From Chlorobiaceae bacterium (GTDB taxonomy: Bacteria > Bacteroidota > Chlorobiia > Chlorobiales > Chlorobiaceae): DNA of 47,290 nucleotides. Position numbers and translations under genes: made by a program. The stretch is from the NCBI GenBank assembly GCA_013334435.1, contig JAAXXP010000002.1, positions 14,468-61,757 on the forward strand, given 5' to 3'. Under the pieces are notes generated by a model. It had not been told where the DNA came from, ran no database searches, and saw only the letters and a program-made list of their open reading frames with translations. Shown here in pieces: positions 20,659 through 28,241 of the stretch. Numbering within the stretch: position 1 is the stretch's first letter; every line of letters begins with the position of its first letter.

Positions 20659-21105
20659 TTACAGCGCTACATGGTCGTCATGGACAGGAAGCTCTTCGAC
20701 AGCGTGGAGGACATCGGTCATGTTCAGCACGCCGAGTACCTTGTCGTTTTCCATGACGGTAAGCCGTCTGACATTGGTTCTCTTCATCAGACGGAGAGCG
20801 TACTTGACTCTGAGTGCGGGATTGATACTGATGATCGGCTTGCTCATGATCTGAAAAACCGGAGTGTTCCATGGATCGCGATGCACGTCTTCGCCGGGAT
20901 CGATAACTTTTTCGAGAATATCCTTTTCGGTGACAATACCGTAGCAGTCGTCTTCATTGCGGGGCTCGACAACCAGGCCGCTCTGCTTTGTGCTTTTCAT
21001 GATCTGCAGCGCCTCGGCAACCGTACAACTGCCTTTGATCGTCTTAAAATCTTTCTGCATCAAAGCCGAAACCGGGAGAGTCCGCAGTGTTATAAGCTGA
21101 TCCAT
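20659..21105 (-). CDS. CBS-domain pair protein
   Basis: Stand-alone Bateman module of 148 aa with two CBS domains: about 12-75 ([20 protein letters not shown] to [11 protein letters not shown]) and about 85-140 ([15 protein letters not shown] to [12 protein letters not shown]). Such proteins usually bind adenine nucleotides and regulate partners, but no partner domain is fused here. A good Shine-Dalgarno (AGAGGGA) precedes the ATG. It sits upstream of sdhA with a 135-bp gap, so it may or may not share a transcript with it. Confidence 0.85.
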
Positions 21106-21283: not shown

Positions 21284-21925
21284 TTATTTTATGCCGTGAG
21301 CTTTTTTGAAGGCGGCCCAGTTGTTTTTCAGGGCGATGAATGCGTTGAGATCGGGCTGCAGGAGAAAGGGGTTCGAAGCCTTTTCATCCCCGAGCGTGGT
21401 GATGGGCCGCTCCCCGTAATCATGCCCGGGATAAACCGTGGTGGAAGGCGGCAGTTCTTTCAGCAGCCGGCGCAGCGAGTCATATTCGGCGGCGGCTTCC
21501 TCCCCGGAACAGGTGCCCCCGACCTTTCCGGTAAAGAGCGTATCACCGGTAAAAAGCGCATCGCCCGCGTGAAGGCAGATGGAGTCAGGAGTATGACCGG
21601 GAGTATGGAGAATATGCACGCTAAGCGAGCCGAGCGGGAAAAGCGCTCCATCTTCCACCCTCGTCCCCGTCAGAGGGCAGATATCCCCGTAAAGCAGCGG
21701 ATGAAGACCGGTCAGGCGCGCCATCTCTTCGTTGCCGTTGGTATGGTCGGCGTGAGAGTGGGTGGAAAAAACATAACGGACCCTGTAGCCGTGCCCTGCC
21801 GCGAAATCGGCAATGGAACGGGGATCCCAGGAGGCATCGACGACCAGCGCATCCCCCGAGTGTTCATCAGCGGCAAGATAGCCGAAATTCCTGTCGCCCC
21901 CCGTGCGGAACTGTTTGACGATCAT
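21284..21925 (-). CDS. Metallo-beta-lactamase-fold hydrolase (glyoxalase II / ETHE1-like)
   Basis: MBL-fold hydrolase of 213 aa with the dinuclear metal motif THSHADH near residue 55, [10 protein letters not shown] (second His), FTGDTLF (bridging Asp) and YPGHDYG near the end. The overall pattern fits the glyoxalase II / ETHE1 persulfide dioxygenase group. Sequence alone does not separate a thioester hydrolase from a persulfide dioxygenase, and the segment after the bridging Asp (GKVGG) looks more like the hydroxyacylglutathione-hydrolase-like branch. It is the last gene of the six-gene operon headed by the CsoR-family sensor, 21 bp after the PII-like gene. Confidence 0.85.
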
Positions 21926-21946
21926 GGATATCCTTTGGGTTGCCTG

Positions 21947-22255
21947 TCAGGCGGTTTTTTCGACATTCATGAGAAAAGCCCTTGCCGGAAAATCCCGGTC
22001 GACGGCAATGGGGTTCGTTTCGAGTTCCTCCATGATCGCTTCCGCCTTGTCGTCGTCGAGCACGGCGAAACAGAGCGACGAGTAGGTGCCGATCATCTCA
22101 TCGGAAGGCCACCAGGGCTGCTGGGTTCCCGTTTTGCGGTCGCAGTTGCACCCGCGGATAGAGACATTGCTGAACATGTGCACCTGAAACTTCCTGAACA
22201 GGGCACGGACCATCGGCCGGGTCTCTTCATGACCCATAATCGCTATGAATTTCAT
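21947..22255 (-). CDS. Small PII/CutA-like protein in RND operon
   Basis: A 102-aa soluble protein beginning [20 protein letters not shown]. The alternating beta-alpha-beta pattern, the early helix after strand one and a second beta strand (SLCFAVLDDDKAEAIMEELE) suggest a ferredoxin-like fold of the PII/CutA type. A CNCD cysteine pair (near residue 36) could bind a ligand or metal. Its ATG overlaps the permease stop by 4 bp (ATGA), so it is translationally coupled to the RND permease. Small PII-like proteins of unknown function are known beside RND transporters. The family call is by fold impression only. Confidence 0.6.
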   Translation of the reverse strand: MKFIAIMGHEETRPMVRALFRKFQVHMFSNVSIRGCNCDRKTGTQQPWWPSDEMIGTYSSLCFAVLDDDKAEAIMEELETNPIAVDRDFPARAFLMNVEKTA

Positions 22256-25200
22256 GGTTTATTCGCCTCCTGCACCGGTTTTTCCGATTTTTTTTCAGTG
22301 ATATAATAGACCAGAGGAACGACAACAAGCGTCAGGACGGTCGAGAGAATCCCCCCCCAGATCATCGAAATGGCCAGTCCCTGAAATATCGGATCGAAAA
22401 GCATGATCACCGATCCGATAACCACAGCCCCGGAGGTCAGAATGATCGGACGCGTCCGCACCGCTGCAGATTCGATGATCGCCTGTTTAAGTTCGGTACC
22501 CTCTTCCCTCCGGATCTGGATAAAGTCGATCAGAAGAACGGAATTTCTCACCATGATGCCGGCAAGGGCGATCATGCCGATCATGCTTGTGGCGGTAAAA
22601 AACGCGCCGTGAATGAAGTGGCCGGGAATGATGCCCACAAGACTCAGCGGAATGGAGATCATCATGATGAGCGGCGTCTTGAACGACTGGAACCAGCCCA
22701 CGATCAGGAGATAGATGATGACCAGCACCACGGCGAAAGCCGTACCGAGATCCCTGAACACCTCGAAGGTTATCTGCCACTCCCCGTCCCATTTCATGGC
22801 GAGTCTATCCTCGACGGCAGGATTCGAGGTATAGAGCGGGTTGATGCTGTAACCGCCGGGAACCTTGATCTGCCGGATTTTTTTGTCCATGTCGAGCATG
22901 GCGTAGACCGGGCTTTCCGTCGCACCGGCAACATCGGCCGTTACATAGAGCACCCGGCGGAGATCCTTGCGGTAGATGCTCTTGTCCTGTATTTTTTCCT
23001 CGACCTTCACCAGCTCCGACAGCGGAATCATCTCTCCGGCGCGCAGACGGGTGGTGAGGGACCCCATTCCCTGCGACTGGACAAAGATGCCGGAAAGATC
23101 CCTGAGAGAGGTCCGGTCGGCTTGAGGCAGCCGCACCTGTATCATGACCGGCTCCTTGACATTCTGCGTATGCAGCACACCGACATCCATGCCGCTGAGC
23201 GACATGCGCAGCGTCTGGGCGATCTGCTCGGTGGAGACGCCGCGAAACGCCGCCCGCTCCTTGTTGACCACCAGGTTGTAGACCTTCTGGTCGTCCTCCA
23301 GAAGCCAGTCGACATCAACCACGCCCGGAGTCTCGGAAAAAACCCGCTTAACCTCTTTTGCAAGCGCGATCTGCTCTTTCTGCGAAGGTCCGTATATCTC
23401 CGCCACGATGGTCGAGAGCACCGGAGGGCCTGGAGGAATTTCCACAATTTTCGCATTGCCACCGTACTTCAGGGCGATCTTCTGGACTCCGGAACGGACC
23501 CTTTTGGCGATATCGTGGCTCTGGTCCTTGCGCTCTCCCTTATGGACAAGATTGACCTGAATGTCGGCAAGATTGGATGCCTGACGCAGATAGTAGTGGC
23601 GGACGAGGCCGTTGAAATTTATCGGCGCACTGGTTCCGACATAGTACTGGTAGCTGCTGACCTCCGGCACCGTTTTCAGATATGCTGAAATCTCCTTGGC
23701 AACCCTTGCCGTCCGTTCCAGGGCGGTGCCTTCCGGCATATCGACGATAACCTGGAACTCGTTCTTGTTGTCGAACGGCAGCATTTTCATCTGCACGGCT
23801 TTAAGCGGTATCAGGATGATCGCGCCGGCAAGCAGCAGACCGACTCCGGCAAATGCAATCAGACGCATGAAGCTGTTGTCGAGCAGCGGAGAGAGAATCT
23901 TTTCAAACAGCCTGTAGTACCCGGTCTTCGTGATATCATACTCCGCATGCCCTCCGTCCTCTACTTTCAGCAGTCTGTAGGAAAGCCACGGGGTTACGAT
24001 CAGGGCGATCAGGAGCGAAAAGATCATGGCCAGCGAAGCTCCGATCGGCATCGGACTCATGTATGGGCCCATCAGTCCGGAAACGAACACCATCGGCAGC
24101 ACGGCGGCGATAACCGTAAAGGTTGCCAGAATCGTGGGATTGCCGACCTCGCTGACCGCCGTTATGGCCGCCTGCAGTTTCGGCTGACGCTTCATGGCGA
24201 AATGGCGGTGAATGTTCTCGGCAATGATGATCGAGTCATCGACAACGATACCGGTCACGAAAATCAGTGCGAAAAGCGTCACCCGGTTCAGGGAGTAATC
24301 GAACAGGTAATAAACAAGAAGGGTCAGGGCGAAGGTAATCGGCACGGAAACGAAATTCACCAGCGCGCCCCGCCATCCAAGGAAAAGACCCACGACGATC
24401 GTCACCGCAACAATGGCGATGATGAGATGTTCGAGCAGCGTGAACACCTTCTCCGTCGCACTCTCGCCGTAGTTCCTTGTTTCGGTAACGGTAATGGAGG
24501 CCGGGATGACCGATCCCTTGAGCTGATCGACCTTGGCAACAACCTTTTCGGCAAGCACCGAGGCATCGGCTCCCTTGCGCTTCGCCACCGTCAGGGTGAC
24601 GGCCGGATATTCGCCGCGGTCTTTGGACTCCGAAGCCGATCCCCAGCCGAAAAAGTTGTAGTTGCTGACCTCTTCGGGCCCATCGACAATACGGGCGACA
24701 CTGCTCAGGTAGACCGGCGATGCGCCGTAAATACCGACAACGATGTTGCCGACATCTGAGGCGCTTTCCAGGAAACTACCCGAGCGGACAAGAATTTCGC
24801 TGTTCTGCTGCCTGAAATCACCGGAAGGCATCTGGCTGTTTGCCATCTGCACCTGGCGGGCGATCTGCAGGGCGCTTACGTTGTACTGCAGCAGCTTCTG
24901 CTTGTCCAGAAGAATGCGCACCTGTCGCCTGAGCCCCCCCTTGATGTCGACGTCGCCTATATTTTCGGTCTTTTTCAGTTCATCGGCAACATCCATGGCG
25001 GTCTTTCTGAGCTGATAGGGGTCCCTGCTCTTGCTCCACATGGTCAGGTTCAGCACCGGAACATCGTCGATGGCCACCTTTTTCATGAGCGGCATCTGTA
25101 CCCCCTGAGGCATCTTGTCCATGTTCTTCATGAGGGTTGCCCAGAGCTTGACCATGCTCTCCTCGGTATTCTGACCCACGTCGAAGCGAACCGTCACCAG

Positions 25201-25482
25201 CGCAAAATCCGGCATGGAGGTTGAATAGACATAGTCAACGCCGGGAATTTCGGTCAGCGAACGCTCGAACGGCTTGGCGACACGTTCTTCGACCTCGGAG
25301 GGGGGCGCACCGGGATAGGGAATGTAGATGTCCACCATCGGAACGACAATCTGCGGTTCCTCCTCCCTCGGCGTCATGAACGTTGCGATCACGCCTACAA
25401 GAAGCGAGGCCACCATCAGAAGCGGCGTTATCTTCGAGTTGATGAACTGCCTGGCAAGCCTGCCTGCAATACCTTCATTCAT
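22252..25482 (-). CDS. RND efflux transporter permease (HAE-like)
   Basis: Inner-membrane proton-driven RND pump (1076 aa). TM1 is near residues 20-38, and TM2-6 and TM8-12 flank two large periplasmic loops, as in AcrB. The TM4 segment [15 protein letters not shown] carries the Asp pair Asp415-Asp416, which matches the hydrophobe/amphiphile (HAE) type. Metal pumps of the CzcA/CusA type usually have a single Asp there. [12 protein letters not shown] and [24 protein letters not shown] are typical RND stretches. It overlaps the short adaptor gene by 8 bp and the PII-like gene by 4 bp. Substrate unknown. Confidence 0.93.
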
Positions 25483-25930
25483 TGGACTGAATCTCTTTTG
25501 TTTCTGAAACCTGCTCTTTCACCAGCGCTCCCTCCCGGAGCGACCGGTTATACCTGCCGACAATCCTCTCTCCCGCATCGAGACCTCCGAGAATGACAAC
25601 TGAACCGTTGACGGTACGGCCGGTCCGTACCCACCGAACGGTAAGCCGATCCTCGCCGTCAACGACATAAACCCCTGCCAGCTCCCCCTGGTGAAACACC
25701 GCTCCTCCGGGAACGGTGAGCGTTGACGTTCCCTCACGGCCGGAACTCTCCCCGACGGTAACAATGCTTTCCACCGCCAAGGGAGTGGCCGGCTTCACGA
25801 TTGCCTGAGACGCCGGCTCCTCTTTTCCGCACCCCGTCACAATGCCGAAGAGTACGGCAAAAAGAAACAGTCTGATCATCCTTATATCCATAATGCTCAA
25901 TCCGGTTTCCCGTCCGTTTATGATAAACAT
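25475..25930 (-). CDS. Very short RND adaptor-like lipoprotein
   Basis: In the position where an RND periplasmic adaptor (usually 350-400 aa) is expected, only 151 codons are open. A signal peptide with lipobox IVTGC (Cys34 from the first ATG; Met14 or Met18 are alternative starts) is followed by about 30 residues. Then comes a segment resembling the C-terminal membrane-proximal domain of adaptors: TVPGGAVFHQGELAGVYVV, VRTGRTVNGSVVILGGLDAGERIV and LREGALV. The alpha-hairpin, lipoyl and beta-barrel domains that reach TolC are absent. There is no stop or frameshift, so it looks like a clean in-frame deletion or a purpose-built mini-adaptor. It is 12 bp after tolC and overlaps the permease by 8 bp. 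Confidence 0.75.
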   Translation of the reverse strand: MFIINGRETGLSIMDIRMIRLFLFAVLFGIVTGCGKEEPASQAIVKPATPLAVESIVTVGESSGREGTSTLTVPGGAVFHQGELAGVYVVDGEDRLTVRWVRTGRTVNGSVVILGGLDAGERIVGRYNRSLREGALVKEQVSETKEIQSNE

Positions 25931-25942
25931 TCAGCTGTTGCG

Positions 25943-27268
25943 CTATTTTCCCGAGTAGTAGTCGTACTCGCTTCTGGCTATGCAGAAGTCGTGGCGCGCC
26001 TGGTTGAGGCGCAGCTTCGCATAGGTGTAGGCTCCTTCACGCATCAGCAGCTCGAAGGTCATGGCCATACCGGTTTTGAACTGGGTTCCGATATAATCGA
26101 GACTCACCCGCGCCTCCTCGAGCGCCTGCTGGGCAACGGCCATTCTGGCCTTGGCCGTTTTCATTTCACGAGCAGCTTTCCTGATCTCCGCAAGACTGCC
26201 GCTGCGGGCCGCCTCGTAAGAGTATCGCGCTTCGAGCTCCCTTGCTTTCGCTTCCTGGATACGGCCTTCCGAGGCCATGCCGTCGAAAATATCCCACTGC
26301 ATGTTCACCCCCATCGACCAGCTCGAACCGCCGCTGAAAACATTGTCGCTGTGCAGGTCGGTTCTGAGAAAACCGTTCACTCTCGGAAGCCTCGATGCCC
26401 TTGCCATATCTCCCTGCTGCCGGGCGATCTCCCGGTAGGTCTGCATGGCCATGAGGTCGGACCGGTTTTCAGGCACTGCCGCCTCATCGACCGAAGGCAC
26501 TCCCTTGCCGACAACGAAATCGCCGGAAGGAATGACGTTGACGTCCTGCTCGAGATTCAGCAGCACTTTAAGGGCGTCGGTCGCATTCTTTATGGCGTCG
26601 TGAAGCATGAGTTTCTGCTCGTTGAGCTCGGCAAGCCTCACCTCGGTGGAAAGTTTGTCGGATTTTGTCAGCAGCCCCACACTATACGCTTTCGCCGCCT
26701 CGCGGCTGTGCCCGCTCATGGTGCCAATGGACTGGTCGATGGCCTCGATGTTTTTCCGGGCGAGGATCAGGCCGTAATAAACCTTGCTGACCTGCAGCTC
26801 AATGGCTTCCGCCGTTCTTGCCGTCATGAGCTCCTGGGCCTTCTTTGAGGTCGAAGCGACCTTGCGGCCAATTGCCGCATCGGCGTTGAATATGGGCTGT
26901 ATAACCTGCAGCGACGTATTGAAGTCGTTGATCGTATCGGCGTTGTTGAGTTTTTCAGGATTGAAATCGGCCATCGTGACACTGTTCTGCTGCAGCTTCA
27001 GAACAAGTGCCGCGCCTGGATCGTTGGTCACAAGAAAGGTCTCAGACAGCGTTACTTTCGGCAGGTAGGACTGGCGGGACTGGGTGATTTTCGCCTCGGC
27101 CTGGTCAACCCTGCTGCGTGCCGCCCTGATCGTGTAATTGTTTTCACGGGCCATGCGCACCGCATCTTCAAGCGAAAGCCTCACGGTTCTGCTGCCTGCA
27201 GCTGCCTGGCCGGGCGAGAGAAGCGCTCCGCACAGACAGATACCGGTCAGTACCTGGTATACCTTCAT
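25943..27268 (-). CDS. TolC-family outer membrane efflux protein
   Basis: Outer-membrane channel subunit (441 aa). A signal peptide (MKVYQVLTGICLCGALL..., cleavage near QAAAG) precedes two repeats of the TolC helical-barrel unit. LSLEDAVRMARENNYTI and RSRVDQAEAKITQSRQSYLP mark the first, and the second ends in LNQARHDFCIARSEYDYYSG. It lies 6 bp after the CsoR-family gene and before the short adaptor, so it should supply the exit duct for the RND pump. Confidence 0.9.
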   Translation of the reverse strand: MKVYQVLTGICLCGALLSPGQAAAGSRTVRLSLEDAVRMARENNYTIRAARSRVDQAEAKITQSRQSYLPKVTLSETFLVTNDPGAALVLKLQQNSVTMADFNPEKLNNADTINDFNTSLQVIQPIFNADAAIGRKVASTSKKAQELMTARTAEAIELQVSKVYYGLILARKNIEAIDQSIGTMSGHSREAAKAYSVGLLTKSDKLSTEVRLAELNEQKLMLHDAIKNATDALKVLLNLEQDVNVIPSGDFVVGKGVPSVDEAAVPENRSDLMAMQTYREIARQQGDMARASRLPRVNGFLRTDLHSDNVFSGGSSWSMGVNMQWDIFDGMASEGRIQEAKARELEARYSYEAARSGSLAEIRKAAREMKTAKARMAVAQQALEEARVSLDYIGTQFKTGMAMTFELLMREGAYTYAKLRLNQARHDFCIARSEYDYYSGK

Positions 27269-27274
27269 GGTGTT

Positions 27275-27505
27275 TTACTGTTTTGAGATGAGTTTTAAAA
27301 TCCGTGCCACATTTTCCGAGTCGTTACGGCTCATGCACTCTTTCAGACTTCTGTCGAGAACAAGGGAATAGGTCTTGTCAAGCGCGGCTTTTGCTGCCTG
27401 AAACTGTATGATGACCTTTTCACATCCCTGCGAGCTCTCGATCATCCTGACAAGAGCCTCTACCTGACCGGCTACCTTTTTCAGCCGTACAATCACATCG
27501 TCCAT
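27275..27505 (-). CDS. CsoR/CstR-family transcriptional repressor
   Basis: An all-helical DUF156 regulator of 76 aa: VIVRLKKVAGQVEALVRMIE, then ALDKTYSLVLDRSLKEC. Cys28 and Cys57 are 29 residues apart, the same spacing as the ligand cysteines of copper sensor CsoR (36/65) and persulfide sensor CstR (31/60). The position of the CsoR copper-ligand His, four residues before the second Cys, is Ser53 here. Copper sensing is therefore unlikely and a thiol-based, CstR-like input more so. I start at the ATG at 27505; upstream codons in frame are not conserved. It heads the operon and has a perfect operator-like palindrome 63 bp upstream. Confidence 0.88.
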   Translation of the reverse strand: MDDVIVRLKKVAGQVEALVRMIESSQGCEKVIIQFQAAKAALDKTYSLVLDRSLKECMSRNDSENVARILKLISKQ

Positions 27506-27547
27506 ACGCTTCAAGCCCTTTTGATGAAAAACATCGCATAAATCTGC

Positions 27548-27596
27548 ATACCCGGCGCCGGCATACCTATACCCGGTTAGGGTATAAAAAGTACAA
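27548..27596 (-). promoter_or_regulatory. CsoR-type operator and promoter region
   Basis: TATACCC (27568-27574) and GGGTATA (27580-27586) form a perfect 7-bp inverted repeat around a 5-bp spacer. Two more ATACC half-sites (27548 and 27563) lie beside it on the gene side. On the minus strand a possible -35 TTGTAC (27596-27591) and -10 TATAGG (27571-27566, 19-bp spacing) flank or overlap the palindrome, so bound repressor would block RNA polymerase. TACCC/GGGTA inverted repeats are typical of CsoR-family operators. Confidence 0.6.
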
Positions 27597-27629: not shown

Positions 27630-28241
27630 TTAGCGGGCCCCCCCCTCAACGGCAAGTTCAGCTGTCGAGCAGCAGATATCGGCCTGTACCTGGCAGAGCA
27701 TGCTCTCGGTTGCCTGCTGCATGATCTGGGACATGATGGTTTCACTCATGAACTTTATGATCCCTTCAGGCATCATGTTCAGGGGAAACGAAAGCGTGAA
27801 ATCCAGTGCGATATCGGTCTCGAAGTGCACTTCGGTTTTCCCTTCGTCCAGATGGTACAGACAGATACGCGTATTGGCCCGACCGACAAAGGTGTGGTTA
27901 TCTTCGATGTCGATATGCGGTGTATTCTGAGCATGAGCCCACCTGATGCACCTTGCCCCCGTCGGAAGGTGCCGGGCTACTTCATGCGGAACCACTGCAG
28001 GCGAATGGTGATCGAGCGGCTCCTCGACCTGCTCGACGAAGAAAATCGCGGTTATGGGATTGTTTCTCGGGTCCTTGGCCTGAAATATCCATTTGTAGAT
28101 GCCCAGCTCCTTCAGATGAACAACGCTGGTACAGTAGGGATTGCATCTGATAATTCTTGTATGATCGGCAAAATACCGGGAAGAGTCATGCAGACATGAT
28201 TCTATAACCACCTTGGCCTTGCTTTTTCCAACAACCTCCAT
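27630..28241 (-). CDS. START/SRPBCC-like protein (DUF1997-like)
   Basis: A 203-aa soluble protein without signal peptide. The alternating beta pattern and a long C-terminal amphipathic helix (EGIIKFMSETIMSQIMQQATE) suggest a START/SRPBCC ligand-binding fold. The family that comes to mind is DUF1997, found in cyanobacteria and chloroplasts, but this is an impression. It lies upstream of the CsoR-family gene on the same strand with about 124 bp between. That gap contains the operator, so the two are probably separate transcripts. Function unknown; a pigment- or lipid-related role is only a guess. Confidence 0.65.
   Translation of the reverse strand: MEVVGKSKAKVVIESCLHDSSRYFADHTRIIRCNPYCTSVVHLKELGIYKWIFQAKDPRNNPITAIFFVEQVEEPLDHHSPAVVPHEVARHLPTGARCIRWAHAQNTPHIDIEDNHTFVGRANTRICLYHLDEGKTEVHFETDIALDFTLSFPLNMMPEGIIKFMSETIMSQIMQQATESMLCQVQADICCSTAELAVEGGAR

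Follow-up and report, generated by a model that had tools for sequence, protein, structure and literature searches.

The window analysed here, a stretch of 47,290 nucleotides from a Chlorobiaceae bacterium, carries an efflux operon in which an RND permease and a TolC-family outer-membrane channel are accompanied by an adaptor lipoprotein (membrane fusion protein, MFP) that is reduced to its membrane-proximal (MP) domain, while many related loci have no adaptor gene at all and the permease bears a ten-residue insertion in a hairpin facing TolC. A periplasmic adaptor is regarded as a requirement for RND pumps, and direct contact between transporter and channel has long been debated from AcrAB-TolC crosslinks and cryo-EM. 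Tentatively, and at somewhat less than even chances, we suggest that Chlorobiaceae possess a natural two-component RND-TolC pump, in which the extended DC hairpin took over bridging from an adaptor that was dispensed with several times. An adaptor stripped or deleted at least six times, next to a permease and TolC tips that stayed nearly frozen and with the disputed hairpin extended, makes up a natural experiment on direct contact. If true, structural studies would gain a minimal transenvelope pump, and it would become apparent which adaptor functions (assembly, transport triggering, sealing) are dispensable.

The six open reading frames on the minus strand (intergenic gaps of 6, 12, -8, -4 and 21 bp) had been described in a first-pass annotation made from the sequence alone, and their coordinates, gaps and highlighted residues were all verified in the window. 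The same annotation spoke of a minimal RND pump. A pump is indeed encoded, but the wording is too mild because the MFP gene covers only the last 77 or so of the 322 positions of the adaptor model; this truncation had been overlooked, as had the absence of the gene in a third of the relatives. The features on which the argument turns are the following:

25475 to 25930, minus strand: mini-adaptor lipoprotein (lipobox C34) of 151 residues with the MP domain only, assigned by TIGR01730, 50 homologues and structure prediction
25514 to 25744, minus strand: MP domain of the mini-adaptor, residues 63-139 (TIGR01730 alignment, predicted structure, Foldseek)
22252 to 25482, minus strand: RND permease of 1076 residues with D415/D416 and R979 (PF00873, 2e-163)
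23041 to 23070, minus strand: 10-residue RND insertion, residues 805-814, at the tip of a DC-domain beta-hairpin facing TolC (alignments of 74 versus 74 RNDs)
25943 to 27268, minus strand: TolC-family outer-membrane channel of 441 residues (PF02321, 3.5e-45)
26627 to 26671, minus strand: TolC periplasmic tip H3/H4, residues 200-214, with G198 and D204 equivalent to G147 and D153 of E. coli TolC (conservation windows)
26030 to 26074, minus strand: TolC periplasmic tip H7/H8, residues 399-413, with G400 and E406 equivalent to E. coli G365 and D371 (conservation windows)

The mini-adaptor, encoded by the third gene, gives no Pfam match and aligns to TIGR01730 at positions 245-321 only, with a score of 43 bits against a cut-off of 94.9. 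The MP domain is its sole folded part (predicted structure, pLDDT 94-98), and Foldseek matches the model to the MP domain of AcrA, MexA, TriA, SilB and BesA. Relative to the sister family f3 (G038, G041), whose adaptor is full, the mini-adaptor lacks a single internal block that comprises the barrel-sandwich (lipoyl), hairpin and beta-barrel domains. Among the 75 Chlorobiaceae loci with a near-complete RND, 51 encode the mini-adaptor and 24 have no adaptor gene, and an adaptor with MP, beta-barrel, lipoyl and hairpin domains was found at none of them. The mini-adaptor can be dismissed neither as an assembly error nor as a pseudogene, since 51 loci encode it intact and it has invariant residues in both the lipobox and the MP domain (C34 is present in all 50 homologues compared). 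Assembly gaps, too, were ruled out as the cause of adaptor-less loci, in which TolC and RND genes are contiguous (at most 190 bp apart, with one 4-bp overlap) and which are often scarred.

On the RND tree, the distribution of mini-adaptor and adaptor-less loci calls for seven parsimony changes, six of which are forced by well-supported branches, implying at least six to seven losses, some of them with scars. The gap between TolC and RND still codes for about 30 C-terminal mini-adaptor residues in G018 and G096, as exemplified by GELVVGTYNPELGEGLTVIKSPNVTEEVQS immediately before the RND start in G018, and about 15 such residues are left in G016, G033 and G087; the remaining adaptor-less loci contain traces only or no remnant. 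The mini-adaptor gene has thus been deleted repeatedly, with both flanking genes left intact. At an 80% threshold, no residue changes in RND were found that distinguish loci with the mini-adaptor from those without.

Outside the Chlorobiaceae the adaptor is usually complete. A genome-wide scan with the RND alignment yielded 80 loci, of which eight belong to Chlorobiaceae and nine are interrupted by a contig end within RND or shortly before it; the other 63 stem from Bacteroidota, KSB1, Rhodothermales, Geobacter, Acidobacteriota, Nitrospirae and others. A long adaptor resides beside RND in 61 of these 63 uncut loci (in one case, L197, in two frames), and the sister family f3 likewise has a full adaptor at the locus. 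Just two outside relatives lack a full adaptor beside RND: L209, where a short MFP open reading frame is found on the chromosome of an Acidobacteriota metagenome-assembled genome (MAG), and L210, a lone RND gene in a proteobacterial MAG. In L206 and L225 from Blastocatellia/Acidobacteriota, the RND homologues measure about 1350 residues, some 280 above the family norm, and a fusion is possible.

The insertion at residues 805-814 is the only multi-residue indel fixed between 74 Chlorobiaceae and 74 outside RNDs: it is exactly ten residues long in all of the former, with G805, R812 and R814 invariant, and absent from all of the latter. By alignment it falls between A794 and D795 of E. coli AcrB, and the proton relay residues D415/D416 in TM4 (the Asp pair already singled out in the first-pass annotation) and R979 correspond to AcrB D407/D408 and K940. 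In AcrB, D795 is part of the crown beta2 hairpin that has been modelled as intermeshing with the H3/H4 and H7/H8 loops of TolC, in agreement with published crosslinks (PMC2292822). On the channel side, residues 399-413 of the H7/H8 tip form the most conserved 15-mer of the whole Chlorobiaceae TolC protein (0.96, rank 1 of 426 windows), and the H3/H4 tip ranks 12th of 426; outside the Chlorobiaceae the two tips rank 44th and 112th, respectively. Residues A402, M403, F405, M409 and R410 of the H7/H8 tip are specific to Chlorobiaceae. The TolC gene is always found beside RND at tight spacing. Deletion or extension of the periplasmic domain of TolC was considered as a compensation and set aside because the main length difference from f3 resembles an extracellular-loop insert.

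The main alternative, which we consider less likely than direct docking, is that the complex has stayed tripartite by recruiting, in trans, the full-length adaptor of a different RND or ABC system in the cell, the mini-adaptor being a leftover or helper. Exchange of adaptors between pumps is known (PMC8446912), and the TolC tips, where adaptor hairpins bind, remain conserved. The window's own genome encodes other RND pumps that have full adaptors alongside. Those RNDs are, however, only 27-29% identical to the permease of the operon, the adaptors of other pumps share no more than 32% identity with the ancestral one and lie beside their own transporters where checked, and a borrowed adaptor leaves the hairpin insertion unexplained. 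A relocated orthologue of the adaptor was not found in any Chlorobiaceae genome, the best full-length match to the f3 orthologue reaching 32% identity at most, and the ancestral adaptor has therefore not simply moved.

Several observations weigh against direct docking. Every Chlorobiaceae genome contains several full adaptors, and conservation of the TolC tips would be equally expected if the adaptor of another pump docked there. Truncation and insertion arose once each, at or near the same branch, and their link therefore amounts to one co-occurrence plus the position of the insertion. A hairpin longer by ten residues may not be long enough for the gap observed where an adaptor bridges the pump. 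The mini-adaptor shows some purifying selection in most species and is thus not useless. Finally, many of the genomes are drafts.

Median pairwise dN/dS values (Nei-Gojobori, 17-19 pairs) amount to 0.035 for RND, 0.077 for the PII-like protein, 0.10 for TolC, 0.11 for the CsoR-type repressor, 0.17 for the MBL hydrolase and 0.31 for the mini-adaptor. When another pump's full adaptor was compared in nine genome pairs, its dN/dS was 0.14 versus 0.31 for the mini-adaptor, and it was lower or equal in all nine (Wilcoxon p 0.004; some pairs are not independent of each other). Selection on the mini-adaptor is therefore relaxed yet not absent, while the pump itself is strongly constrained. It is conceivable that the system is degenerating, with RND moving its substrate only between inner membrane and periplasm or serving a new, TolC-free role. 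Recurrent adaptor loss and the fast-evolving mini-adaptor fit this idea, which we nevertheless hold to be improbable: RND is not only constrained but kept in 80 of 86 genomes, TolC adjoins it throughout, and the periplasmic tips are the most conserved part of TolC.

The remaining parts of the locus concern its regulation and accessory proteins and are situated as follows:

27563 to 27585, minus strand: operator ATACCCTAACCGGGTATAGGTAT, consensus ATACCYNTACGGGGTATAGGTAT, conserved upstream of CsoR
27275 to 27505, minus strand: CsoR/CstR-like repressor of 76 residues with C28, C57 and S53 (PF02583, 9e-18)
21947 to 22255, minus strand: PII-like-fold protein of 102 residues, predicted to be cytosolic, with a CxC motif (C36, C38) in a long loop (fold prediction)
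21284 to 21925, minus strand: MBL-fold hydrolase of the glyoxalase-II/ETHE1 superfamily (family-model matches)

RND proteins of at least 78% identity (range 78-97%) are present throughout the 80 genomes, and the order DUF1997-CsoR-TolC-(MFP)-RND-(PII)-MBL-CBS is kept in most Chlorobiaceae loci. The linkage proposed in the first-pass annotation thus holds in the relatives, contrary to the missing linkage that it had named as a refutation, and because dozens of genomes keep the gene order the locus is well beyond chance. The DUF1997 gene (27630-28241 in the window) and the CBS-domain gene (20659-21105) flank the operon in nearly all Chlorobiaceae genomes. The MBL gene is the loosest member of the set. 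In G002, G007, G015, G018 and G028 MBL is still found with DUF1997 and CBS although the pump module has a different location, and in the drafts G013 and G020 MBL likewise sits beside DUF1997 and CBS, with no pump found in the genome. A functional unit of six genes is ruled out by these arrangements (L094, L097, L102-L106); separability in seven genomes argues for a five-gene module plus a neighbour, the hydrolase probably being co-transcribed without being part of the pump. Where the pump lies elsewhere, DUF1997, CBS and MBL represent the older neighbourhood. In G007 the old pump site (L094, contig C45, 6661-9270) retains CsoR, a PII remnant of 57 residues, MBL and CBS, and an intact five-gene module resides on another contig, so that the old site still testifies to deletion and relocation. 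About a dozen loci also lack the PII-like gene. Locus L092 (G030, contig C1, 10888-11394) harbors a second PII-like gene, 71% identical to the window protein, after an RND fragment of 60 residues, that is, a partial duplication of the 3' part of the operon. In most Bacteroidota loci and in f3, the PII-like gene follows RND; CsoR and MBL are adjacent in Chlorobiaceae only, with scattered and more distant matches elsewhere.

The repressor carries C28 and C57 in all 79 sequences, and residue 53, the position of the copper ligand, is Asn in 70, Ser in eight and Asp in one of them, never His. This agrees with the earlier assignment to the CstR-like rather than the copper-type sensors, as does the PF02583 match with that to the CsoR family. 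The palindrome reported with it is present as a perfect 7-5-7 repeat, TATACCC-TAACC-GGGTATA, at 27568-27586, 62 bp ahead of the ATG of the repressor gene. The core ATACC-N7-GGTAT occurs in 60 of 77 CsoR upstream regions and a looser inverted pair in 66 of 77, against 0.1 expected from shuffles; the predicted operator is the sole site within the window, and none arose in shuffled sequence. Its consensus can be parsed as TAC-N3-TAC-N3-GTA-N3-GTA. TTHA1953, a repressor of sulfur oxidation and Cys-only CsoR homologue that is regulated through Cys and insensitive to metals under reducing conditions, binds TACNNTACNNNNGTANNGTA and has its Cys residues 29 positions apart (PMC10318464). A CstR-like sensor is plausible because the operator is conserved and resembles the TTHA1953 site, and together with the Cys pair this makes a sensor reacting with thiol or sulfur species our best guess. 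Chlorobiaceae use N-methyl-bacillithiol (PMC6282198), and export or hydrolysis of thiol adducts by the operon is therefore a reasonable idea. Tandem pairs of CsoR-like genes precede the pump in L049, L090, L091 and L133, where the upstream copies have no canonical operator in front.

The first-pass annotation had gone further and likened the operon to CstR-type persulfide detoxification, which would make MBL a persulfide dioxygenase (PDO) working together with an exporter of sulfur species. The Cys-only sensor, the TTHA1953-like operator, the sulfide-oxidizing hosts and the membership of MBL in the ETHE1/glyoxalase-II superfamily are in line with it. The MBL fold is confirmed and the sensor class is plausible, but the dioxygenase parallel is not supported. 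The metal ligands H56, H58, D60, H61, H111, D128 and H168 are invariant, but GGT takes the place of the GRTDFQ motif and the position of ETHE1 Arg163 is an invariant Gly (G137), on which ground the enzyme was rejected as a persulfide dioxygenase. An O2-using dioxygenase is, moreover, unlikely in strict anaerobes. Neither sulfurtransferase, SQR nor PDO, the targets of CstR type, was found in the operon, which holds a pump, the PII-like protein and a non-PDO hydrolase that parts from the pump in several genomes. We regard this explanation as very improbable.

For the PII-like protein, neither Pfam (E 0.01, including PF00543) nor NCBIfam nor PDB sequences gave a match, and the earlier label is borne out by fold alone, the predicted single chain matching GlnK/PII (Foldseek, E 2e-5, TM 0.64). 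Its CxC is conserved in Chlorobiaceae and absent in f3. In Geobacter, CzcABC comes with PII-NG proteins (PMC7726332), and the association of PII with RND is itself not new. That precedent, the CxC motif as part of a metal-binding partner and the CsoR family of the sensor could point at efflux of Cu/Ag or another soft metal, to which we assign little probability: the sensor is devoid of the His ligand, the operator is unlike the long G/C-tract type, f3 PII-like proteins lack CxC, and RND reaches 446 bits with multidrug models versus 293 with the CusA/CzcA model (TIGR00914, cut-off 701), both below cut-off.

Taken as a whole, we give an even chance to an autoregulated efflux operon with a reduced adaptor and an RND that docks directly on TolC. 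The Cys-only repressor would bind the TAC/GTA operator and probably be released by thiol oxidation or persulfidation, thereby controlling TolC, RND and the PII-like protein and, via co-transcription, the MBL hydrolase. In the ancestor of the Chlorobiaceae, a single block with the lipoyl, hairpin and beta-barrel domains would have dropped out of the adaptor. What was left, a lipoprotein whose only domain is the one seated on the RND porter region, was later deleted repeatedly. The pump would have been kept in use, RND docking onto the TolC tips by way of its DC hairpin, longer by ten residues, with the mini-adaptor as an optional clamp and the PII-like protein as a possible cytosolic tuner. Of this picture, the sequences show the anatomy and distribution, the losses, the insertion with its position, the selection and the conserved operator; direct docking, the class of inducer and the part played by the PII-like protein are inferred.

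A narrow literature query on adaptor-free RND pumps found none, and searches for Chlorobaculum expression data gave no usable result. The operon can be viewed against related systems. The TolC-MFP-RND-PII-like operons of Bacteroidota and Chloroherpeton-like relatives (L060, L159, L168-L190) belong to the same RND subfamily (about 55-70% identity) and share the gene order, in most cases including the PII-like gene after RND, but encode a full-length adaptor and an RND without the insertion and have no CsoR or MBL neighbor. AcrAB-TolC and MexAB-OprM (HAE-1) have the RND fold, the DD proton relay and a TolC-family channel in common with the Chlorobiaceae pump, whereas in them a full adaptor is considered essential, no insertion is present at AcrB 794/795 and K940 stands in place of R979. 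As in Geobacter, a PII fold is encoded next to an RND pump, but the Chlorobiaceae protein lacks PF00543 and has CxC in a loop, and the pump is not clearly of the metal class. Like TTHA1953 from Thermus thermophilus and staphylococcal CstR, the repressor is a CsoR-family protein with two Cys 29 residues apart; the TTHA1953 operator also consists of paired TAC/GTA units, with 2- and 4-nt instead of 3-nt spacing, and the targets are Sox or cst genes there and, as predicted, the pump operon here. The closest precedent is BesCAB from Borrelia burgdorferi, where the adaptor BesA has no alpha-hairpin, implying direct transporter-channel contact (PMC3807786). BesA still keeps lipoyl, beta-barrel and MP domains, while Chlorobiaceae have the MP domain only or no adaptor, and no additional domains that could compensate are seen in BesB and BesC, in contrast to the new hairpin insertion of the Chlorobiaceae RND (PMC3807786).

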